Part shown: positions 44,120 to 56,391 of the stretch, one piece after another | Numbering within the stretch: position 1 is the first letter of the stretch | Layout of the letters: the number at the start of each line of letters is the position of its first letter | Source: Flavobacteriales bacterium 33_180_T64 | GTDB taxonomy: Bacteria; Bacteroidota; Bacteroidia; Flavobacteriales; Flavobacteriaceae | Direction of reading: 5' to 3' | Assembly (NCBI GenBank): GCA_002162685.1 | Contig: MAAQ01000018.1 | Location: 62,001-126,000, forward strand | Length of the DNA stretch: 64,000 nt | Program-made: the position numbers and the translations under genes | The notes under the pieces: model-generated | What the model saw: the letters and a program-made list of their open reading frames with translations, nothing else | Database searches by the model: none | Told to the model about the DNA's origin: nothing

Positions 44120-44229
44120 AAATTATAATTTCTTTTTTTTCCTAAAAAATCTAATGTGACAATATACTAACATTTAATTAAATGTTAATTTTCATCTTGT
44201 GTTTTTTACGATGTTCAAGAAGGATAAAA

Positions 44230-47202: not shown

Positions 47203-48036
47203 ATGCGAGTTTTAAAAACGATACTAGATTTTTATATTAATAGCAGTATTCATGTGGCTTTAGCGGTGTATGCATTGTCATGGGTGACTTTATTGCAGCT
47301 TGATATAGCTTATGATAAAAACGTGTTGTATTTTATATTTTTTTCTTCTGTAACCGGATATAATTTCATCAAATATTTTGGCTTAGCAAAGTTTCATCAT
47401 CGCAGTCTTGCTAATTGGTTAAAAGCAATACAGATTTTTTCATTAATGTGTTTTATTGTGCTTTGTTATTATGCGCTTCAATTAAACATGAAAACACTTC
47501 TATATGTTGGTGCATTTGGACTTGCTACGTTTTTGTATGCCATTCCTATAGTGCCAAAAAAGATATTCTTAGACAAGCATCAAAATTTGAGAAGTATTAG
47601 TGGACTTAAAATATATATCATTGCTCTAATCTGGACAGGTGTTACCGTTTTTTTACCTGTAATTAATAATGCGTATGATATTACTGATGATATCATTATA
47701 ATTGCAGTACAACGATTCTTATTTATATTAGTGTTAATGCTTCCTTTTGAAATAAGAGACTTAAGCTATGATAGCTTGAGATTAGCTACTATTCCTCAAA
47801 AAATAGGAATAAAGAAAACTAAGATTGTAGGTTTTTTATTGTTATTTGCCTTTTTTTTATTAGACTATTTTAAAGATGGTATCAATTCAAAAGATGTGAT
47901 GATTACTATAGTGATAACTACTATATCAGTACTGTTTTTGATGTTTTCGAAAGAAAATCAGAATAAATACTATAGTGCTTTTTGGGTAGAGAGTTTACCT
48001 ATTTTGTGGTTGGTGATTTTATTGGTGCTTAGTTAG
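47203..48036 (+). CDS. UbiA-like prenyltransferase-fold membrane protein
   Basis: 277 residues with about eight helices. The second-half motif EIRDLSYDSLRLATIPQKIG fits the DxxDxxxD-type Mg/prenyl-diphosphate site of UbiA enzymes (DIRDxxxDxxxGxxT), while the first site (usually NDxxDxxxD) reads TGYNFIKYFGLAKFHHRS, with only the N and a few positions kept. It may be an inactive or specialised relative. UbiA enzymes attach prenyl chains to aromatic acceptors for quinones, heme, and lipids. It is a single gene whose 3' end overlaps the anti-sigma gene by 18 bases on the opposite strand. Confidence 0.65.
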   Translation: MRVLKTILDFYINSSIHVALAVYALSWVTLLQLDIAYDKNVLYFIFFSSVTGYNFIKYFGLAKFHHRSLANWLKAIQIFSLMCFIVLCYYALQLNMKTLLYVGAFGLATFLYAIPIVPKKIFLDKHQNLRSISGLKIYIIALIWTGVTVFLPVINNAYDITDDIIIIAVQRFLFILVLMLPFEIRDLSYDSLRLATIPQKIGIKKTKIVGFLLLFAFFLLDYFKDGINSKDVMITIVITTISVLFLMFSKENQNKYYSAFWVESLPILWLVILLVLS

Positions 48037-48270
48037 TTCTTTGTTAAAGTTAGATTTTAAACTTTCCTTTTCTGAATACTCTAAAACTATAGGTTTTTTA
48101 GTCATCAGTTTTGTTAATTTGCTATTGTTTTTTGTGTATCCTCTACACGCATTACAATATATCAAATGTATATTTAATTTTATTTTTTCCCATAAAGTCG
48201 CTTCCTTGTATTGTGTTTTGTCACATACATGATTAGCTTTTTCGCAAGGAATTATAATTTTGTTATTCAT
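48019..48270 (-). CDS. Small zinc-finger anti-sigma factor
   Basis: 83 residues. H35-x3-C39-x2-C42 (HLIYCNAC) is the ZAS (zinc-binding anti-sigma) motif, and the first cysteine, C16, lies at the right distance. The helices around residues 18-34 (QYKEATLWEKIKLNI) match the ZAS domain that clamps sigma regions 2 and 4. There is no membrane helix, so the protein is a soluble ZAS rather than a transmembrane anti-sigma. It is encoded 3 bases after an ECF sigma gene, the normal place for its cognate regulator. The 3' end overlaps the UbiA-like gene on the other strand. Confidence 0.75.
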   Translation of the reverse strand: MNNKIIIPCEKANHVCDKTQYKEATLWEKIKLNIHLIYCNACRGYTKNNSKLTKLMTKKPIVLEYSEKESLKSNFNKELTKHQ

Positions 48271-48273
48271 AAT

Positions 48274-48825
48274 TTAAAACCAATTTTCTTCAAGGCAACT
48301 CGCCATAGCTGTTCTTGCTCTATGAATTATTACCCAAAGGTTAGACGCAGTTATGTCTAATTCATTACAAATAGCTTCGGTATCGTAGTTAAGAATTGTC
48401 TTCATTTCAAAAACTTGCGCTTGTTTTTTAGGTAGTTTCCCCAAGCAGTTTTCAATAGCTAAGCCTAATTCGGTATTTTCAATAGTGTTTTCTGCTGTTT
48501 TATCAAAAGGATCAGCAACACGTTCTTCTAACCAGTCTCCTTCATTTTCATCACTACTGTAACTCATTCTAACTTCGGCTTTACCTTTATTAGAATTAAT
48601 TTTACGATAGTAATCTATAATTTTACGTTTTAAAATAGAAATAAGCCAAGTGCGTTCACTCGCTTCACCTTTAAAATTTTTCATAGAGTTTAAGCCAGCA
48701 ACGAAGGTGTCTTGTACTAAATCTTTAGCGATTTCTCTATCATTTACACGCGTGATAGTGTAATTAAATAGATAATCAGAATATAGATTAATCCATTGGT
48801 TAGGATCTATGATGTGTTTTGGCAT
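48274..48825 (-). CDS. ECF-type RNA polymerase sigma factor
   Basis: 183 residues. Region 2 includes RVNDREIAKDLVQDTFVAGL and SERTWLISILKRKIIDYYRK; region 4 includes LPKKQAQVFEMKTILNYDTEAICNELDI and the HTH NLWVIIHRARTAM. It is a complete ECF sigma factor of the sigma-24/RpoE class, which directs RNA polymerase to stress or envelope genes. A -7 box TATTTTTG lies 22 bases before its ATG, so it can be made apart from the rest of the cluster. The gene is followed at once by a ZAS anti-sigma gene and preceded by the DUF2071/SDR operon. Confidence 0.92.
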   Translation of the reverse strand: MPKHIIDPNQWINLYSDYLFNYTITRVNDREIAKDLVQDTFVAGLNSMKNFKGEASERTWLISILKRKIIDYYRKINSNKGKAEVRMSYSSDENEGDWLEERVADPFDKTAENTIENTELGLAIENCLGKLPKKQAQVFEMKTILNYDTEAICNELDITASNLWVIIHRARTAMASCLEENWF

Positions 48826-48847
48826 TTTTTTTCTAAAAATTTAGATT

Positions 48848-48855
48848 CAAAAATA
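48848..48855 (-). promoter_or_regulatory. -7 box of the ECF sigma/anti-sigma pair
   Basis: On the minus strand TATTTTTG, ending 22 bases before the sigma ATG at 48825, in the 58-base gap after the last DUF2071 gene. No -33 TTG fits well. Confidence 0.5.
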
Positions 48856-48883
48856 ACGTAAAAATTTGATTTTATCTAAAGTT

Positions 48884-49582
48884 TTAACGGTGTATGGTTT
48901 TTTTGTTTTTTACAACGACCTGTGATCCTTTGGTAAGAATTACTGAAGTTGGCTTTGTATGGTTTAAAAATGCAAAGGCTTCTCCATAATTGGCTTTGAA
49001 GTCTAGATCAATTTTATAATCAATTACTTTTAACTGTTGCCATGTAGGATGTACAATTTCATATTCAAAAGTTGTATTGTCATGTTTGGTATAACCAAAA
49101 TAATGTTCGGTTATAAATTGAGTTTCAGAATGCTCACTAATTTGAGTGTATGTGTTTTCGGTTTTTACAGAAATAGTTTGCCAAATACTGTTTAATTTCC
49201 ATCGGTATTCAAAATAATTAAATTGCTCATTATGGACCCATTTATGCGACATTTTATGAGTTTGATAATGCTCGTGATAAATAGAATTAGCAACATATGT
49301 GATTAAAGGTTTTGGAACAATTTCTTTAATAAATACAACACCTCTTTTATCATTATGTTTAACATAAAACCTTAAGTTCACTTCTTCGAAGTTGATATGA
49401 TTAGGAAGTTTTAGACCTAATACTTTTGTGTCCATAAACATAAATCCCACAAGACTTATATAGCATTTGCCATTATAAAAATCTAGAACGGTTCCTTTTG
49501 GGACATAAGGTTTTAAAAGGTTAGGGGCAATTTCATAATTTATAAGTATAAGATTTTTCCAATATGCTTTTAAGAATGTCAT
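48884..49582 (-). CDS. DUF2071 (YqjF-like) protein, second copy in the cluster
   Basis: 232 residues of the DUF2071 family: LINYEIAPNLLKPYVPKGT at the N-terminus, GFMFMDTKVLGLKLP and EVNLRFYVKH are its conserved blocks (beta-barrel fold, possibly ligand-binding). The role of the family is unknown. It starts 5 bases after the SDR gene stop, so both are co-transcribed, and a more distant relative lies in the same cluster at 52571-53308. Sequence identity between the two looks low, so they are probably an old duplication or separate recruitments. Compared with that copy it lacks the long central NIFTHYNYTTTDI stretch. Confidence 0.8.
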   Translation of the reverse strand: MTFLKAYWKNLILINYEIAPNLLKPYVPKGTVLDFYNGKCYISLVGFMFMDTKVLGLKLPNHINFEEVNLRFYVKHNDKRGVVFIKEIVPKPLITYVANSIYHEHYQTHKMSHKWVHNEQFNYFEYRWKLNSIWQTISVKTENTYTQISEHSETQFITEHYFGYTKHDNTTFEYEIVHPTWQQLKVIDYKIDLDFKANYGEAFAFLNHTKPTSVILTKGSQVVVKNKKTIHR

Positions 49583-49587
49583 AATTA

Positions 49588-50487
49588 TTATTTTAAAAGA
49601 TCATTAAGAGCCATTTCAATATCTGAATGTATAAATTTAAATTGATTGTCTAGCAATCGTTTTGGAATCACATTTCTACTTTTTAAAACCAATTCTGATT
49701 CTGTGCCAATAATTTTAGCGCCAAGTTTAATAAGCCATTCTGGGTGCGAAATACCAAATGGTACTTTCATTACTTTCCTTAAGTTTTTCATTAGTATTTT
49801 ATTATTTGTTGGTTTGGGTACTGCGAGATTGAAATGACCTTCTAGGCTTTCATTCAGAATTAAAAATTCAATGGCTCTTGAAAAATCAAGTTCATGAATC
49901 CAACTTACTTTTTGTTCTCCTGAAGCCTGTTTTCCACCTAAACCAAATTTCACTAAGTTTTTTAATGGTTGTGTTGCTCCTCCATGTTTGCCCATGACGA
50001 TTGAGGTGCGCAATGCAATTTTTCTTGTTTTTGGGTTGGTGATAGTGTAGAAGGCTTTCTCCCACGATTTGGCAATATTCATGGAAAAGTCATCACCAAT
50101 ATCACCATGTTCTTCAGTCATTTGTTTGTCTATAGAGTGTTTGTATATGGTTGCAGTAGATGAATTTATCCATAGTTTTGGTGGGTTTTCACATAAGTTA
50201 ATAGCTAGCCCCAAAGCATGTGTCGCGTCTATTCTAGAATCGTAAATAAGTGTTTTATTCGCTTCTGTATATCTACAATCTACAGATTTGCCAGTAAGAT
50301 TGATGAGTACATCTGTTTGCTCTAATAGTTTTGTCCATTCTTCTAGTTCTTTAGCGTTCCAATAGACCTCATTATTTCGTTTAGGATGACGTGTTAAGAC
50401 ATAGACTAAATGTCCTTTTTTTGAAAAATAGTTTTCAAGTACTTGACCTAAAAAACCGCTTCCTCCAGCTATTGTTATTGTGTTCAT
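49588..50487 (-). CDS. TIGR01777-type SDR oxidoreductase (YfcH-like)
   Basis: 299 residues. The NAD(P)-binding GGSGFLGQVL at 8-17 and the later STATIYKHS and TIVMGKHGG-like strands (TSIVMGKHGGATQPL) place it in the extended SDR family TIGR01777, with the DUF1731-type C-terminus (GISHPEWLIKLGAKIIGTESELV). The usual catalytic YxxxK is replaced by YKHSIDKQ, in which Y and K remain but with non-standard spacing. It may bind a sugar or lipid as other family members are thought to. It sits between a methyltransferase (23-base gap) and DUF2071 (5 bases) in the GbsR cluster. Confidence 0.85.
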   Translation of the reverse strand: MNTITIAGGSGFLGQVLENYFSKKGHLVYVLTRHPKRNNEVYWNAKELEEWTKLLEQTDVLINLTGKSVDCRYTEANKTLIYDSRIDATHALGLAINLCENPPKLWINSSTATIYKHSIDKQMTEEHGDIGDDFSMNIAKSWEKAFYTITNPKTRKIALRTSIVMGKHGGATQPLKNLVKFGLGGKQASGEQKVSWIHELDFSRAIEFLILNESLEGHFNLAVPKPTNNKILMKNLRKVMKVPFGISHPEWLIKLGAKIIGTESELVLKSRNVIPKRLLDNQFKFIHSDIEMALNDLLK

Positions 50488-50510
50488 ATTTCCGAAGTAT
50501 AAATTGTTAT

Positions 50511-51389
50511 TTAATTTTTAGTTGCTGTAATGATATAATATCCAAAGCTTTTCATGTGTAAGCCAGAAAGTAAAGCATAGAAAGATCCTTTTAAATTGTG
50601 AAGACTTTCCTTTTTTAATGCTTTGTTAGTCCATAATGTTTTAAATGCAAACCCAACTATTGCAAATGGGACATGTAATACTGAAGGCGCTACACGAAAC
50701 GACATGTTTTCTACAACGACTTTAGTAAAGCCAATATCTTTTAATTTTTGTTTATAATCATTAATGTTTTCTAGTTTTTCTAGACTCCAATGATTGCATA
50801 ATCTATGATATGCAAATTGACTTCCAGAGCATAATTGAGAGTCTTCTTTTTTTAAAAAGGCATCAGCAATGACTAAGCGACCACCTGGTTTTAAGATTCG
50901 ATGTGCTTCTTTTATTGAGATTACACTATGACCAGAATGACAAAAACTTTCTATAGCTAAGGCACTATGAAACGTATTAGATTTAAAAGATGTTTTATTA
51001 TAATTCTCTTTTAAAATAGTACCATTTAAGCCGTTTAGTAAAGCATTACCTTTTGTGACTTGAAAGTCAGAAAGCGTAACACCAAAAGCAGAACTGATTT
51101 GATTTTGTTTTAATGCATATCGCATAGAACCACCCATTCCACAACCTAAATCAATTAATGTATTTTCTTTAGGTCTATTCTCAAGACGATTGAGGACTTG
51201 GCGATTCATTTCGTTAAGCATGGAGTCTCTTTTGAATAGATTTGTTTTAAACGGACTGTAATACCCAAAGTGCATATTAAAATCTTTACTCCAGAATTCA
51301 TAATCTTCTGTAGCTTCATTGTACAAATCAACCATTTCTATTTTGGTTTTTTCCGAACGGTTGTTATATAAGATGGATTGTGTTTTCAT
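50511..51389 (-). CDS. Class I SAM-dependent methyltransferase (CFA/sterol methyltransferase-like)
   Basis: 292 residues. LIDLGCGMGGSMRYAL is motif I, FGVTLSDFQVTKGNAL holds the motif II position and the typical substrate-binding run of cyclopropane-fatty-acid and sterol-type methyltransferases (GITLS-like), and ALAIESFCHSGH with IKEAHRILKPGGRLVIADAF are motif IV/V. The YYSPFKTNLF stretch near residue 43 fits the N-terminal helices of that group. A lipid or isoprenoid acceptor is therefore likelier than a protein or RNA. It follows the membrane protein by 29 bases in the cluster. Confidence 0.82.
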   Translation of the reverse strand: MKTQSILYNNRSEKTKIEMVDLYNEATEDYEFWSKDFNMHFGYYSPFKTNLFKRDSMLNEMNRQVLNRLENRPKENTLIDLGCGMGGSMRYALKQNQISSAFGVTLSDFQVTKGNALLNGLNGTILKENYNKTSFKSNTFHSALAIESFCHSGHSVISIKEAHRILKPGGRLVIADAFLKKEDSQLCSGSQFAYHRLCNHWSLEKLENINDYKQKLKDIGFTKVVVENMSFRVAPSVLHVPFAIVGFAFKTLWTNKALKKESLHNLKGSFYALLSGLHMKSFGYYIITATKN

Positions 51390-51418
51390 AATGTTGATTT
51401 TTGAAAATTAAATAATGG

Positions 51419-51814
51419 TTATGAAAAAGAAACGATTGAAAAAATAACACTAAAATAAATCCAGAGCAGAGAAAAGAAAACATGAACTATAGTGTCGAAT
51501 TTTTTTCCTTTCCAAAGCTTTGATGAGTAAACAAAAAATTGAAAGAGTAATCTAATGGTCCAAAAAAAGAGAAGTCCAAGTGTTATTTTTTTACCAAAAT
51601 CTGTTTCTACGAGTTCTACAGATGAGGTTAAGCAAAGTAATCCCATAAGAAATACAACTAAGGCAATAAAAAATGTATGCACAGTCATCATTTGTCTATT
51701 GATTAAGCTCAATGTTTTTAACTCTTTGTTCCAATTGAAGTACCTTGGGAATATAATATGTATTAGAGATAGTATTATTAATAGAAACCCGATTATTTGT
51801 AAATGAATAGTCAT
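51419..51814 (-). CDS. Small four-helix membrane protein, unknown function
   Basis: 131 residues from the ATG at 51814. An upstream ATG at 51949 would overlap the neighbouring methyltransferase gene and add an implausible polar extension. The chain has four helices (QIIGFLLIILSLIHIIF, MMTVHTFFIALVVFLMGLLC, LGLLFFWTIRLLFQFFVY, VFFSLLWIYFSVIFSI), with conserved PRYFNW and SLINRQMM between helices 1 and 2 and a polar SKLWKG loop between helices 3 and 4. I know no family name. Its position between two methyltransferases and 13 bases after one of them ties it to the cluster's function. Confidence 0.7.
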   Translation of the reverse strand: MTIHLQIIGFLLIILSLIHIIFPRYFNWNKELKTLSLINRQMMTVHTFFIALVVFLMGLLCLTSSVELVETDFGKKITLGLLFFWTIRLLFQFFVYSSKLWKGKKFDTIVHVFFSLLWIYFSVIFSIVSFS

Positions 51815-51827
51815 CTTTTTTGTGTTT

Positions 51828-52580
51828 TTATTTAATGCAGTTAAAAATTGACATAAATGGTGTGAATTTAGTTTCTGATATGGAGGAAAACCCTGCTTCT
51901 TTGTAGGCTTTTTTCCAAGATTTTTTGGAGAAAAAATGTGTAAACCCAACAGAGAACGCTAGGAAGTTTGGTAAATCTCTTAGGTGCTCAACCATTACAA
52001 TTTTTCCGTTTGATTTACATATTCTATTGCATTCTTTTAAGAAAATAATCTTTTCTTTATGCGATCTTATTTCATGTGCAGCAGATAGTAGAAAAATGAT
52101 GTCAATTGATTTATCATCTAAAGGAATTTCGTTAGTTTTTATTTGTTGTGTATTAGGGTAAACTAAACTAGCTTTTCGTGCTCTTATTATTGCAGGTTCA
52201 GTATGCTGTTTAGGATTATAAAAATCGAACACTTGTAAATTTGATTTTGGAAAATTGGTTTTAAGAATAAAACTGGTTTCATCAAAACCAGCATTTATAT
52301 TGATAATTTGATTTGTGTTAGAATCCAATATATTACAATGTTTTAACCATTTAAAATTATAATAATCAGAAAGGTCATAAACATAAACTGAAACAATCAA
52401 AGGCATCAATAGACCATAAATAAAAGCTATAATAATGATCCAATAGATTAGGTTAGACCAATTAAATAATATCCAGCTAGCTGTTATTAATGCTAAAATT
52501 GTAAGTCCAATCACATAAAAATGTCTGTTAAAACTTAAAATATTTAGAACTCCTTGAAATTTTTTTCTTTCTATTTCCAT
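51828..52580 (-). CDS. Membrane-associated SAM-dependent methyltransferase
   Basis: 250 residues. Two hydrophobic helices come first (residues 20-45 and 45-70: YVIGLTILALITASWILF, LIYWIIIIAFIYGLLMPLIV), then a methyltransferase core beginning ININAGFDETSF (a degenerate motif I in which the central glycines are mostly lost), then VFDFYNPKQ, DIIFLLSAAHEI and CNRICKSNGKIVMVEHLRD. The membrane segment points to a lipid-soluble acceptor. The start overlaps the upstream DUF2071 gene by 10 bases. It may act on the same substrate class as the CFA-like methyltransferase two genes on. Confidence 0.75.
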   Translation of the reverse strand: MEIERKKFQGVLNILSFNRHFYVIGLTILALITASWILFNWSNLIYWIIIIAFIYGLLMPLIVSVYVYDLSDYYNFKWLKHCNILDSNTNQIININAGFDETSFILKTNFPKSNLQVFDFYNPKQHTEPAIIRARKASLVYPNTQQIKTNEIPLDDKSIDIIFLLSAAHEIRSHKEKIIFLKECNRICKSNGKIVMVEHLRDLPNFLAFSVGFTHFFSKKSWKKAYKEAGFSSISETKFTPFMSIFNCIK

Positions 52581-53308
52581 AATTCTATTTTGCCTTGTTT
52601 CCAGTAATATGGAATATTTTGTATTATAAATGTATTTGCTAAAACATGATTATTTAACTGTAGGGAATCTAAATAATCAATAGTGTAATTAATAACTTTC
52701 ACGGGTTTAGGTTTCCAGTTTAATCTTACACCTTCAATGATTAAAACTTCTTTTGTTTCTTTATTATAAGTGAATGTAAATGGTAAAGGACCAGCAAATC
52801 GTCTTGCCTCTTTCCAATTTGTAAATGGTGAATTGTTTGGCAACTCAATATCTGTTTCTGTTTTACTTATAGTAATATTGAAATTTGATTGTTCCGAAAT
52901 TATATCTAGTGAATTATTATAATGGGTTTTGGTAATATCTGTAGTTGTGTAATTATAATGTGTGAAAATATTGCCCATGAATGCCATTTTCTTTTTATCT
53001 GTTTCTGATTTTATTATGTATAAACCACGAAGACGCTTTCCAGCTTTGTTAGTATAACGGACAAAAATGCGATACCCTATTAAAAAGAAATCATTACCTA
53101 AAAACTTTGGTAGACCTTTTGGTCTTAAGTCTTTAGTTTCAACCATAGCTACAGCAACAAAAGCCCACTTGTCTTGAAAAGTGTCTAAACTCAAACACTC
53201 AGGAATTAGTGATTGTAATTGTTCTTTTGGAACAGCAAAGGTTAATACTAGAGAACTGTTAAAAAATGCTTCTACAGCGAATGGGTGGTTTTTAAGAGTT
53301 GCTAACAT
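52571..53308 (-). CDS. DUF2071 family protein, first copy in the cluster
   Basis: 245 residues. The DUF2071 blocks are AVPKEQLQSLIPECLSLDTF at 25-44, AFVAVAMVETKDLRPKGLPKFLG and NDFFLIGYRIFVRYTNK; IIEGVRLNWKPKPVKV near the end is also conserved. The family folds like an acetoacetate decarboxylase, but here no catalytic lysine assignment is made. It overlaps the upstream DoxX gene by 17 bases and the downstream methyltransferase by 10, so translation is tightly coupled. A divergent second copy sits 3 kb away in the same operon. Confidence 0.8.
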   Translation of the reverse strand: MLATLKNHPFAVEAFFNSSLVLTFAVPKEQLQSLIPECLSLDTFQDKWAFVAVAMVETKDLRPKGLPKFLGNDFFLIGYRIFVRYTNKAGKRLRGLYIIKSETDKKKMAFMGNIFTHYNYTTTDITKTHYNNSLDIISEQSNFNITISKTETDIELPNNSPFTNWKEARRFAGPLPFTFTYNKETKEVLIIEGVRLNWKPKPVKVINYTIDYLDSLQLNNHVLANTFIIQNIPYYWKQGKIELWK

Positions 53309-53681
53309 GATTTCTATAATATTTGAAGTTTGTGTAATACACTATACAGATGAAAAGAATAGCAAAAAGAATATTTGATTTTCCCCATAGAAGTAAATCT
53401 GGTACATGAATATATTCGAGAATATTCATTAGAGCTATAATTATAATTTGTAATGCTGCATTTAATTTTGATTTATAACCAGATACAATCCAAATTGCCA
53501 TTAAAATTTCTAGGATTCCTATAAAGACAGTAAAAGGGCTTGAATATGTATTTCCTAAAATTCTACTAACAATCTCTTCATGTCTAGGGACAAAATGTAA
53601 GACTTTACAAAAAAGACCATTAATGAACCATACACTTACTATAAGTAACATTAATGTTTTATGAGTTATAATTTTTTTCAT
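53292..53681 (-). CDS. DoxX-like membrane protein
   Basis: 129 residues with four helices (LMLLIVSVWFINGLFCKVL, FTVFIGILEILMAIWIV, LNAALQIIIIALMNILEYI, ILFAILFICIVYYTNF), in the size and order of the DoxX-like group (PF13781/PF07681). The family has been tied to thiosulfate:quinone reductase, but many members act as envelope proteins of unknown role. It is the first gene after the regulator; a putative operator lies just upstream. It overlaps the DUF2071 gene by 17 bases, so it opens the operon. Confidence 0.8.
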   Translation of the reverse strand: MKKIITHKTLMLLIVSVWFINGLFCKVLHFVPRHEEIVSRILGNTYSSPFTVFIGILEILMAIWIVSGYKSKLNAALQIIIIALMNILEYIHVPDLLLWGKSNILFAILFICIVYYTNFKYYRNHVSNS

Positions 53682-53700
53682 TATTTGTTGTATATATTGA

Positions 53701-53722
53701 ACTTTCAGAAAAAATTGAAAGT
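53701..53722. promoter_or_regulatory. Putative GbsR/MarR operator in front of doxX
   Basis: ACTTTCA (53701-53707), 8 bases, TGAAAGT (53716-53722). The half sites and the 8-base spacing are the same as in the palindrome upstream of the regulator gene. It lies 20 bases upstream of the doxX ATG at 53681 (minus strand) and 16 bases past the regulator's stop. Confidence 0.65.
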
Positions 53723-53737
53723 ATATTTTAAATTTTT

Positions 53738-54241
53738 TTATTTAATGAGTTTTAATAAAGACTTTGTAATCCAGTTTTGTTTTTGGTTAACCAATTTATT
53801 AATCATGTCATCTGCAGTCTCTGTTAAATCGTGTAAAGCTTTTGTTTGTTTGATGAGTTCTCTTGTTTTTTTTGTACCGTCATCTTTTATAGACGACACG
53901 TCTTTTAAAACTTTAATTACAGGTTGAATTTCTCTTCTGCTACGTTCTTTAGCTATTGTTCTTGCTAATTCTTGAACATCTTTTTCTGTCGTAAAAAATT
54001 CTTTGCGTTCTCCAGGAATGATTTCTTTTGTGACAATTCCCCAATCTATTAACTGACGAAGATTCATGCTTGTATTACCTCTAGAGATTTTAAGTTCTGC
54101 CATAACCTCTTCCATTGATAATGGTTTTGTAGAAATAAAAAGCAAAGCTTGTATCTGGGCCATAGCCTTATTAATTCCCCAAAGGGAGCCTAAACTTCCC
54201 CAGGTACTTACAAATTTTATTTTTGCTTCATCGTAGTTCAT
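53738..54241 (-). CDS. GbsR/MarR family transcriptional regulator
   Basis: 167 residues. The winged helix-turn-helix runs through residues about 20-95: AMAQIQALLFISTKPLSMEEV, MAELKISRGNTSMNLRQLIDWG (recognition helix SRGNTSMNLRQL) and a wing at EIIPGERKEFF. The C-terminal part is helical for dimer contact. It matches the GbsR group of MarR-type repressors, which in other bacteria control osmoprotectant genes. Its own gene has a perfect inverted repeat upstream, and another with the same half sites precedes doxX, so it likely represses itself and the following operon. The effector is unknown. Confidence 0.88.
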   Translation of the reverse strand: MNYDEAKIKFVSTWGSLGSLWGINKAMAQIQALLFISTKPLSMEEVMAELKISRGNTSMNLRQLIDWGIVTKEIIPGERKEFFTTEKDVQELARTIAKERSRREIQPVIKVLKDVSSIKDDGTKKTRELIKQTKALHDLTETADDMINKLVNQKQNWITKSLLKLIK

Positions 54242-54264
54242 GATGATAAATATATGAAATATTT

Positions 54265-54292
54265 TAAACTTTCAATAATTATTGAAAGTTTA
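54265..54292. promoter_or_regulatory. Perfect 28-base palindrome upstream of the regulator gene, probable operator
   Basis: The two 14-base arms (54265-54278 and 54279-54292) are exact reverse complements with no spacer. Its core is ACTTTCA-N8-TGAAAGT, the same as the site at 53701-53722. It lies 23 bases upstream of the regulator ATG (minus strand), where it would overlap the -33 region if TATATTTA nearer the ATG is the -7 box. Confidence 0.75.
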
Positions 54293-54308
54293 TTTTTTTG
54301 AATAAAAA

Positions 54309-54332
54309 AAACCGAAGTGTTATTTTCGGTTT
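54309..54332 (-). terminator. Rho-independent terminator of the M3 peptidase gene
   Basis: AAACCGAA, an 8-base loop and TTCGGTTT pair perfectly; read on the minus strand a run of seven T follows. It lies 22 bases past the peptidase stop. Confidence 0.85.
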
Positions 54333-54354
54333 AATAGAATAGAGTTGTCTTCTG

Positions 54355-56391
54355 TTAATTATCAATCAATCCTGCGCGTTTCAATAGTGCGTCTGGTTTT
54401 GGTGCCTTTCCTCTAAAACGTTTGTAAAGTGTCATTGGATCTTCTATACCTCCTTGAGAGAGCACATTGTCCTTAAATTTTTTAGCAACGGCTTTGTTAA
54501 ATACACCTTCCTCTAAAAAGTATTCAAATGCATCAGCATCTAAAACTTCAGCCCATTTGTAACTGTAATACCCAGAGCTATAGCCGCCTTGAAAAATATG
54601 TGAAAAAGCAGTACTCATACAATTTTCTTCAACATCAGGAAAAAGTTTTGTATTCTCAAACGCTTTTTGTTCATGTGCTTTTACAGATGTAATTGTATCT
54701 AGTGATTCATTAGCATGCCACGACATATCTAATAAGCCAAAACTAATTTGTCTTAAGGTTTGCATACCTTCATGAAATGTTGCTGAAGCTTTTATCTTAT
54801 CAATTAATTCCATCGGAATAACATCACCAGTTTCATAATGTGTGGCAAAGAGTTCTAAAGCTTCCTTTTCAAAACACCAGTTTTCTAAAACCTGACTTGG
54901 TAATTCTACAAAATCCCAATAGACACTTGTGCCTGATAAGCTTGGATATGTTGTATTTGCTAGCATGCCATGTAAAGCATGACCAAACTCATGAAATAAC
55001 GTGGTGACTTCATTAAAAGTAAGAAGTGAAGGTTTACTTTTTGTGGGTTTAGTAAAGTTACAAACAATAGAAATGTGTGGTCTGTCGTTGACTCCATTTT
55101 TTATGTATTGTGGTTTGTAAACGGTCATCCAAGCACCATTTCTTTTTCCTGATCTTGGAAAAAAATCAGCATAAAAAATAGAGATTAAATCGCCTTTAGT
55201 ATCTGTCACTTTATAGGTTAATACATCGTTGTGGTATTTGTCGATGTTATCTATCTCTTCAAATTTTAAATCGTATAGTCGCTCAGCAATGGTAAAAACA
55301 CCATCAATAACATTTTCTAATTTGAAATAGGGTTTTAGTTGCTCATCATCTAAACTGAATAATTTTTGCTTTAATTTTTCAGCATAATAAGAGCTATCCC
55401 ATTTTTGAAGCATGTCAATCCCATCTAAATCTTTTGCAAAAGCTTCTAAGGTTTTAAATTCTTGTTCAGCAGCAGGTTTTGCTTTTTCAAGTAATTCATT
55501 TAAGAAATTTTCAACCGTCTCAGGTGTTTTTGCCATACGTTCTTCTAAAACAAAATGCGCATGTGTTTTATAGCCTAGTAAATTAGCACGGTCATAACGT
55601 AGTTTCGTAATTTGAAGAACATTATCTTGATTGTCTAAGTCATTGCCTTTGAAGGCTTTTGAACCCGCAATTAATGCTAATTCTTGACGTAATTTTCTGT
55701 TGTTTGCATAGGTCATAAATGGAATGTAACTTGGATAATCTAATGTGATTAACCAACCATCTTTATCTTTAGATTCTGCTAATTGCTGAGCAGCTTCTTT
55801 AGCACCATCGGGTAATCCATCTAGATCACTTTCATTAGTGAGATGCATTTCAAATGCATTAGTTTCTGCTAAAACATTTTCACCAAATTTTAGTTTAAGT
55901 TGACTTAGTTTTTTGTCAATATCACGAAGCTGAATCTTTTTGTCTTCAGAAAGATTAGCGCCATTTCTAGAAAAACTTTTATATTTTTTATCGAGAAGTG
56001 TTTGTTGTTCTTTCGTTAGGTTTAAAGAGTTCTTGTTATTATAAACTGCTTTTACACGTTTAAATAAGTCTTCATTTAATGTAATGTCATTACTGAATTC
56101 TGATAGGAGAGGAGAAACTTCTTGAGCAATTTTTTGAATTTGATCATTTGTTTCAGCACTATTCAAATTAAAAAAGATACTTGAGAGTCGATCTAATTCT
56201 TCACCCGAAAAATCTAATGCAGCTATTGTGTTCTCAAAAGTTGGCACTTCAGTATTTAATGTTATAGCATTAATTTCTGCTTTTGCCTTTTTAATTGCCG
56301 TTAAAAATGAAGGTAAATAATCTTCATCTTTGATTTTAGAAAAAGGTGCTGTATGATAGGCTGTTTTGAATTTAGAATTTAAAATACTCAT
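54355..56391 (-). CDS. M3 family metallopeptidase (oligopeptidase/Dcp-like)
   Basis: 678 residues, usual size for M3 thimet-type peptidases. The zinc site is LFHEFGHALHGML with H467, E468 and H471; the third ligand follows within FVELPSQVLENW, and the C-terminal domain with FSHIFQGGYSSGYYSYKWAEVL is the conserved substrate-binding region. It digests peptides in the cytoplasm (no signal peptide; the sequence starts MSILNSKFKTAYH). It is a single gene on the minus strand between a terminator and purE, with 312 bases before it. Confidence 0.93.
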   Translation of the reverse strand: MSILNSKFKTAYHTAPFSKIKDEDYLPSFLTAIKKAKAEINAITLNTEVPTFENTIAALDFSGEELDRLSSIFFNLNSAETNDQIQKIAQEVSPLLSEFSNDITLNEDLFKRVKAVYNNKNSLNLTKEQQTLLDKKYKSFSRNGANLSEDKKIQLRDIDKKLSQLKLKFGENVLAETNAFEMHLTNESDLDGLPDGAKEAAQQLAESKDKDGWLITLDYPSYIPFMTYANNRKLRQELALIAGSKAFKGNDLDNQDNVLQITKLRYDRANLLGYKTHAHFVLEERMAKTPETVENFLNELLEKAKPAAEQEFKTLEAFAKDLDGIDMLQKWDSSYYAEKLKQKLFSLDDEQLKPYFKLENVIDGVFTIAERLYDLKFEEIDNIDKYHNDVLTYKVTDTKGDLISIFYADFFPRSGKRNGAWMTVYKPQYIKNGVNDRPHISIVCNFTKPTKSKPSLLTFNEVTTLFHEFGHALHGMLANTTYPSLSGTSVYWDFVELPSQVLENWCFEKEALELFATHYETGDVIPMELIDKIKASATFHEGMQTLRQISFGLLDMSWHANESLDTITSVKAHEQKAFENTKLFPDVEENCMSTAFSHIFQGGYSSGYYSYKWAEVLDADAFEYFLEEGVFNKAVAKKFKDNVLSQGGIEDPMTLYKRFRGKAPKPDALLKRAGLIDN

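Follow-up and report, generated by a model that had tools for sequence, protein, structure and literature searches.

The GbsR-type proteins GbsR, OpcR, OpuAR, CydE and CioR are described as repressors. In Bacillus subtilis, OpcR is reported to cover the -35 region and GbsR to act as a roadblock beyond the start site, at an operator with a 4-bp spacer (PMC7396694), the cargo of both proteins being given as choline and glycine betaine metabolism (PMC7396694, PMC6207618). CydE of Alishewanella (PMC6096048) and CioR of Chromobacterium (PMC11837568) are reported to be encoded inside operons that are repressed by their own products, with cytochrome bd as the cargo. The first DNase footprint described for CydE protects TATTTCAGAAATTTCTGAAAGTTCA, within which we found TATTTCA-N8-TGAAAGT, and its core, TTTCA-N8-TGAAA, arose in 3 of 20,000 letter shuffles of the footprint stretch; the second footprint is reported to lie in that promoter region as well but to have another sequence (PMC6096048). 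A survey of 179 GbsR homologues reports 73, mainly from Euryarchaeota and Bacteroidetes, whose function was not deducible from their gene neighbourhood (PMC6207618).

The locus compared here with these systems lies in a 64,000-nucleotide stretch of contig MAAQ01000018.1 of Flavobacteriales bacterium 33_180_T64 (the window), where a GbsR/MarR-type regulator gene is bracketed by two copies of ACTTTCA-N8-TGAAAGT. Site 1 (operator 1; 54268-54289, ACTTTCAATAATTATTGAAAGT) lies in front of the regulator gene within a perfect 28-bp palindrome, TAAACTTTCA-N8-TGAAAGTTTA, at 54265-54292, and site 2 (operator 2; 53701-53722, ACTTTCAGAAAAAATTGAAAGT) lies between the regulator gene and its cargo. Both copies were found to be exact and at the positions given in the initial annotation, with the same half sites and spacing, as it had claimed. 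The palindrome at 54265-54292 is the longest perfect one in the window (the runner-up has 20 bases), and the longest palindromes in 20 Markov shuffles of the window measured 14-24 bases. With fewer than two mismatches only sites 1 and 2 were recovered from the window, and at up to three mismatches the 13 matches were at chance level (shuffle mean 10.1), so the signal is confined to the exact copies. A search of the whole genome (3,752,198 bases) at 0-1 mismatch again returned sites 1 and 2 alone, compared with four matches to the pattern read backward as a control; the earlier claim, made by eye, that there is no further spaced pair elsewhere was thus upheld at up to one mismatch for both the window and the 3.75-Mb genome. 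Two findings had been named in advance as counting against the sites, namely many copies in unrelated coding DNA and absence of the palindromes before orthologous regulators: the genome holds two copies only, and before orthologous regulators the opposite was found, in 109 loci of the family Flavobacteriaceae and in other families of the Bacteroidia.

The two sites have the core and the spacing of the first CydE footprint as reported, and differ little from it in the right half, TGAAAGTT. The core upstream of the regulator, a CydE-like trait, was present in all 109 family loci at up to two mismatches to the longer pattern, and a regulator gene inside an operon repressed by its own product, as described for CydE and CioR, is what we propose for the window. 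The N8 spacing differs from the 4-bp spacer reported for the B. subtilis GbsR operator, and is therefore not universal among GbsR proteins. By sequence and modelled fold, the regulator (53738-54241, minus strand, 167 aa) is a member of the GbsR family, whose proteins bind AT-rich inverted repeats as homodimers; a repeat of this type is present at the locus. The regulator scored 34.6 bits against the MarR-type winged helix domain PF12802 MarR_2 (cut-off 27); a profile search of the PDB found MJ223 of Methanocaldococcus jannaschii (1ku9) as the solved structure best matched by sequence (E 7.6e-24), and 1ku9 was also the top Foldseek match to the AlphaFold model (mean pLDDT 91.1; E 2.9e-9, TM 0.60/0.65). 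Helix 54-67 of the model contains the residues R54, G55, N56, N60, R62, L64 and W67, which were invariant in a 45-row alignment. B. subtilis GbsR and OpcR are reported as members of the same family with MJ223 as fold template (PMC7396694, PMC6207618). Against the CudC equivalog NF047500 the regulator scored 50.5 bits, far under the cut-off of 218 for a full-length CudC match, and CudC therefore offers no guide to its ligand; the regulator is neither CudC nor the cyd-linked CydE. Neither the betaine synthesis and Opu transporter genes nor the cytochrome bd genes (cydAB or cydDC) that would match the cargo of the described systems were found beside it when 12 window proteins, the regulator among them, were scanned, the remaining open reading frames being judged by eye for the former.

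Conservation of the sites was followed across 109 family loci, comprising 80 named loci (the top-ranking 80 among 171 that were confirmed), 28 stretches from family genomes chosen mainly for divergence, and the window; some of these loci may be of the same species, and L046 and L047 are near-identical copies from one strain. Site 1 was exact in 92 loci, with one mismatch in 11 and two in 6, and site 2 was exact in 76, with one mismatch in 14, two in 16, three in 2 and six in 1. Both were exact in 72 of the 109, and still so in L128 and L129, whose regulators are at 38-40% identity. The regulator was present in 22 of 23 genomes of the window's own genus, and among 249 family genomes, drawn evenly and at least 90% complete, it was called (E <= 1e-15) in 55 and the exact palindrome found in 53. 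The palindrome occurred in 46 of the 55 genomes with the regulator and in 7 of the 194 without it (Fisher p 2e-33, a value that overstates independence as the genomes are related), and the backward-read control occurred in 11 of 249. The exact copy lay beside the regulator in these 46 genomes except for G146, where it was on a different contig and the regulator's own site 1 (L119) had two mismatches, and G226, where its place was not among the matches listed. Nine regulator genomes had no exact copy (G047, G089, G123, G170, G187, G196, G204, G222 and G266); in the eight of them that were examined, site 1 was present with one or two mismatches (L105, L106, L113, L114, L116-L118 and L124), operator 2 of L105 being unrecognisable at six mismatches. 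A regulon distributed around the chromosome was not supported, since exact copies off the regulator's contig, seen in at least 4 of the 55 genomes (G052, G146, G197 and G244), were about as common as the background given by the regulator-less genomes and the backward control.

The neighbour upstream of the regulator is an M3 peptidase gene, called dcp here, and it is followed by a terminator-like hairpin with a T run (54300-54332, minus strand; stem 54332-54309), found in a pattern scan of both strands that gave three such sites against 0.1 expected. Beyond this hairpin, a putative -7 box, TATATTTA (54247-54254, minus strand), lies 5 nt before the regulator's ATG and departs from the consensus TAnnTTTG in its final base, and a putative -33 TTG (54273-54275, minus strand) lies within the promoter-side half of operator 1. 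In Flavobacterium johnsoniae the TAnnTTTG box is reported at -12 to -5, and the -33 consensus, TTTG/TANNTTTG, as a weak motif (PMC6847099). Of the 109 family loci, 102 have an exact TAnnTTTG in the interval from site 1 to the start codon, the window with its one mismatch being among the seven without. It lay 13-15 bp from the end of site 1 in 100 of these 102 (at +4 in the other two), whereas its distance to the start codon varied from 3 to 25 nt, and this constancy on one side against variation on the other ties operator 1 to the promoter, whose putative -33 region it overlaps. In 79 of the 109 loci the box ended exactly 4 nt ahead of the start codon; with the box position of F. johnsoniae, transcription would then begin at the start codon itself, which predicts a leaderless regulator mRNA in these loci, a type rare in flavobacteria (5.5% in F. 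psychrophilum as reported; PMC9723704). At synonymous positions, codons 1-10 of the regulator gene were unusually constant (0.743 compared with 0.44-0.58 for later blocks, in 94 of the 109 loci).

A site over the -33 region fits occlusion of the promoter, as reported for OpcR, and we consider repression at site 1 highly probable from its placement. Operator 1 is also placed ahead of the -7 box, where activators bind too, and the regulator might on that account activate rather than repress from both sites; however, the -33 region falls under operator 1, operator 2 comes after the promoter, and the five GbsR-type proteins named above are all reported as repressors, which leaves activation very unlikely.

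The cargo behind site 2, all on the minus strand, was found to encode a DoxX-like protein (PF13781; 53292-53681), a DUF2071 protein (52571-53308), a methyltransferase (Methyltransf_11; 51828-52580), a small protein matching no family in the profile scan and hydrophobic by eye (51419-51814), a further methyltransferase (Methyltransf_11/CMAS-like; 50511-51389), a TIGR01777 family oxidoreductase identified by profile match (49588-50487) and a second copy of the DUF2071 protein (48884-49582). For comparison across loci, cargo was labelled with models made from protein clusters, adjacent genes of the same label being counted once and the small-protein models c13 and c18 possibly overlapping. Recognised cargo was found in 107 of the 109 family loci, in 60 distinct arrangements (the remaining two, L055 and L080, lie at contig ends), and ten different labels occurred directly behind site 2. 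The TIGR01777 oxidoreductase was present in 65 loci, small protein c13 in 51, DUF2071 in 43, the pair c9a/c9b in 35/36, methyltransferase 17 in 31, c22 in 24, c18 in 20, a DCC-like protein in 18 (with a Pfam score below cut-off) and a fatty acid desaturase in 4, and the block DoxX-DUF2071-methyltransferase 20-c21 recurred in 19. The operon behind site 2 is therefore modular, with exchangeable cargo, and a role in envelope or lipid chemistry is suggested by the methyltransferases, the desaturase and a number of small, hydrophobic products.

Next downstream of the second DUF2071 gene is an ECF sigma gene (48274-48825, minus strand; TIGR02943-like, below cut-off), and the cargo run ended at this gene in 94 of the 109 loci. 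On the other side, dcp or c16 (a gene of about 260 aa) was the nearest recognised upstream neighbour in 92, and both flanks were present in 86. The ECF gene was considered as the right end of the operon and rejected. It was found in 213 of the 249 family genomes, compared with 55 for the regulator, and in ECF neighbourhoods from 15 regulator-less genomes, taken mostly from the top of the ECF match list, dcp preceded the ECF gene with no operon genes between them in 12 (with about 1.2 kb unassigned in L144); of the others, L138 had c22 alone between dcp and ECF, and L140 and L147 differed. Being widespread and adjoining dcp where there is no regulator, the ECF gene is read as a flank, its co-transcription with the operon being possible. 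Bracketed by dcp and the ECF gene (48274-56391 in the window), the module looks like an accessory insert at a conserved site in the family; the usual flanks were missing in family loci L122, L123 and L125-L129, where the module lies elsewhere. Together with a gene for an 83-aa anti-sigma-like protein, the ECF sigma gene occupies 48019-48825 of the window, both falling below model cut-offs, and in many of the stretches read it was near gcvP. A 20-base perfect palindrome, TAACATTTAATTAAATGTTA, was also seen in the window at 44168-44187, between genes read by eye as glycine dehydrogenase and ketoacyl synthase.

Site 2 lies 15 nt past the stop codon of the regulator in the window and was recognised at up to two mismatches in 106 of the 109 family loci, for which its placement was counted: it lay 13-25 nt past the stop codon in 95 of them, and an ATG followed within 30 nt in 101. 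Its spacer is asymmetric (of 11 position pairs in the 22-mer, 4 are unmatched), while site 1 is fully symmetric. The site 2 consensus, approximately AAAAATTTAAA-N4-ACTTTCAATATTTTCTGAAAGTTTAAAA, is likewise asymmetric and extends further left than that of site 1, and in family loci it forms part of a longer module, AAAAATTTAAA-N4-site-TTTAAAA. A housekeeping promoter at site 2 was rejected, as TAnnTTTG was found between -45 and +52 around the site in 0 of 106 family loci (compared with 138 of 2180 equally long random windows) and near it in 0 of 16 out-of-family loci of the class. A promoter hidden in the end of the regulator gene was rejected also, with synonymous constancy of the last codons at 0.448 and of the other blocks after the first at 0.44-0.58 (94 of 109 loci). 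The initial annotation had described the two sites as identical in architecture; this holds for half sites and spacing, but the sites are not equivalent, site 1 being symmetric and overlapping a putative promoter and site 2 having an asymmetric spacer and no recognisable housekeeping promoter. Its reading of a MarR-type, GbsR-like protein that would repress both itself and the operon that follows gains support from the conservation of the sites and from the footprint of the related CydE.

Lying downstream of the promoter, site 2 fits the roadblock reported for B. subtilis GbsR (PMC7396694), and by this position and analogy we give a roadblock at site 2 an even chance or slightly better. The AAAAATTTAAA arm, conserved 4 nt before the site, is not explained by a plain roadblock; it is non-coding there, yet before third sites it overlaps the end of a small gene. 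Twelve further sites were found in the 109 loci at up to one mismatch. Eleven (L027, L028, L032-L036, L039, L049, L100 and L130) have the full site 2 module before another gene, and the module therefore seems to have been copied along with the gene when it was inserted; the neighbourhood of the twelfth (L097) reads as coding sequence. This recurrence of the long module before a further cargo gene could also be expected if operator 2 overlapped an independent, alternative-sigma promoter, the regulator then repressing two promoters, its own and that of the cargo. TTTAAA and TATTTTCT lie about 18 nt apart in the module, resembling -33/-7 elements, and in the family the operon has an ECF sigma gene as its neighbour, but that gene is found far more widely than the regulator (213 of 249 genomes against 55), TAnnTTTG is absent around site 2 in family and class loci alike, and the last codons of the regulator are without synonymous constraint. 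The asymmetric spacer was moreover mostly absent in other families, so that the palindrome itself is the common part, and we regard such a second promoter as doubtful, though with an appreciable chance of being correct.

The two sites flank the regulator gene, most commonly 566 bp apart, and a DNA loop around the gene could join them to tighten repression of a single promoter. However, the distances ranged from 562 to 678 bp in 26 distinct values with no helical phasing (resultant length 0.19, phasing being weak at such lengths), and third sites lie farther downstream, so a loop appears rather unlikely. Site 2 would be transcribed if the operon were read from the first promoter, and its half sites could pair in the message as an RNA hairpin rather than serving as a protein-binding DNA site. 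Against this, site 1 has the same half sites and yet lies upstream of the promoter, and in distant loci the outer bases of the left half read TG, TA, AG or AA instead of AC, with AAAGT mostly kept in the right half, changes that by eye would abolish pairing for want of compensation; a hairpin is extremely improbable. That the regulator would bind both sites as DNA is, on the sequence data, very likely.

Relatives of the regulator were found beyond the family in a profile search with the 45-row alignment, which gave matches in 140 of 396 genomes of the class. The best 30 class loci comprised one from the window's own genome, six from one genus of its own family and 23 from other families. Of these 23 loci, 19 have site 1 at up to one mismatch (shuffles 0.02%) and 16 have site 2 at up to two (shuffles 0.13%), with 7 having no such second site. 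Cargo of one or more of these families was found in 17 of 20 selected out-of-family stretches (in L190 as a weak c13 match only) and in none of L177, L192 and L194; neither dcp before the module nor gcvP after it was seen in any of the 20. We also examined four of the 168 plasmid records with a match, all four proteobacterial. In three of these loci, two of them from Rhizobium leguminosarum, the exact core lay 39-41 nt upstream of the start of the match, and in the fourth, from a Pseudoalteromonas plasmid, the core had one mismatch; on a Chelatococcus and a Rhizobium plasmid the GbsR/MarR gene with the exact core upstream stood before cydD. A second palindrome behind the regulator gene was found in 0 of the 4. 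On the Chelatococcus plasmid (L198, 1012-3579) the GbsR/MarR gene and cydD come after a gene for a sulfate permease, and CydE is reportedly derepressed by sulfate. Since this core is shared with a proteobacterial footprint, the DNA code would appear to be an old one in the GbsR family.

The two sites are rare in the genome, linked to the regulator and conserved in place relative to the promoter, the regulator's stop codon and the next gene. From these observations we infer that a dimer of the GbsR-type winged-helix repressor would bind TTTCA-N8-TGAAA palindromes and, at operator 1, cover the -33 region of the promoter that drives its own gene, thereby limiting its own synthesis; in most relatives examined, transcription from this promoter would begin at the start codon itself. 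A dimer on operator 2, which is about 560 bp away from the promoter, would most likely halt RNA polymerase past the regulator gene as a roadblock, such that repressor could be made and renewed while the cargo was off. A ligand or stress signal would then release the repressor and allow the cargo to be transcribed, here DoxX, DUF2071, the methyltransferases and the TIGR01777 oxidoreductase. The locus appears in this way to combine the placements reported for OpcR and GbsR, with one protein using both modes on its own operon. Taken whole, self-repression at operator 1 with a roadblock at operator 2 and exchangeable cargo is a proposal that we consider probable. More tentatively, and with rather less than even confidence, the arrangement may be a chassis used across the Bacteroidia: a two-operator repressor whose promoter operator limits its own, mostly leaderless, message and whose intercistronic operator acts as a valve, keeping repressor on and cargo off along one transcript, with cassettes of envelope or lipid type swapped behind it, mostly at one hot spot in the window's own family, and the valve copied when a gene is inserted.

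A search of the open-licence PMC literature by title and abstract found no publications treating this operon or its sites, and as far as that search shows, the bracketed two-operator layout, its class-wide reach and its exchangeable cargo are new. For the regulator's relatives across the class, these data provide a candidate operator, a testable mechanism and an apparently local regulon, with some dozen gene families supplying its cargo. An intercistronic operator of this kind would be a simple means of uncoupling the synthesis of a repressor from that of its targets within one operon.
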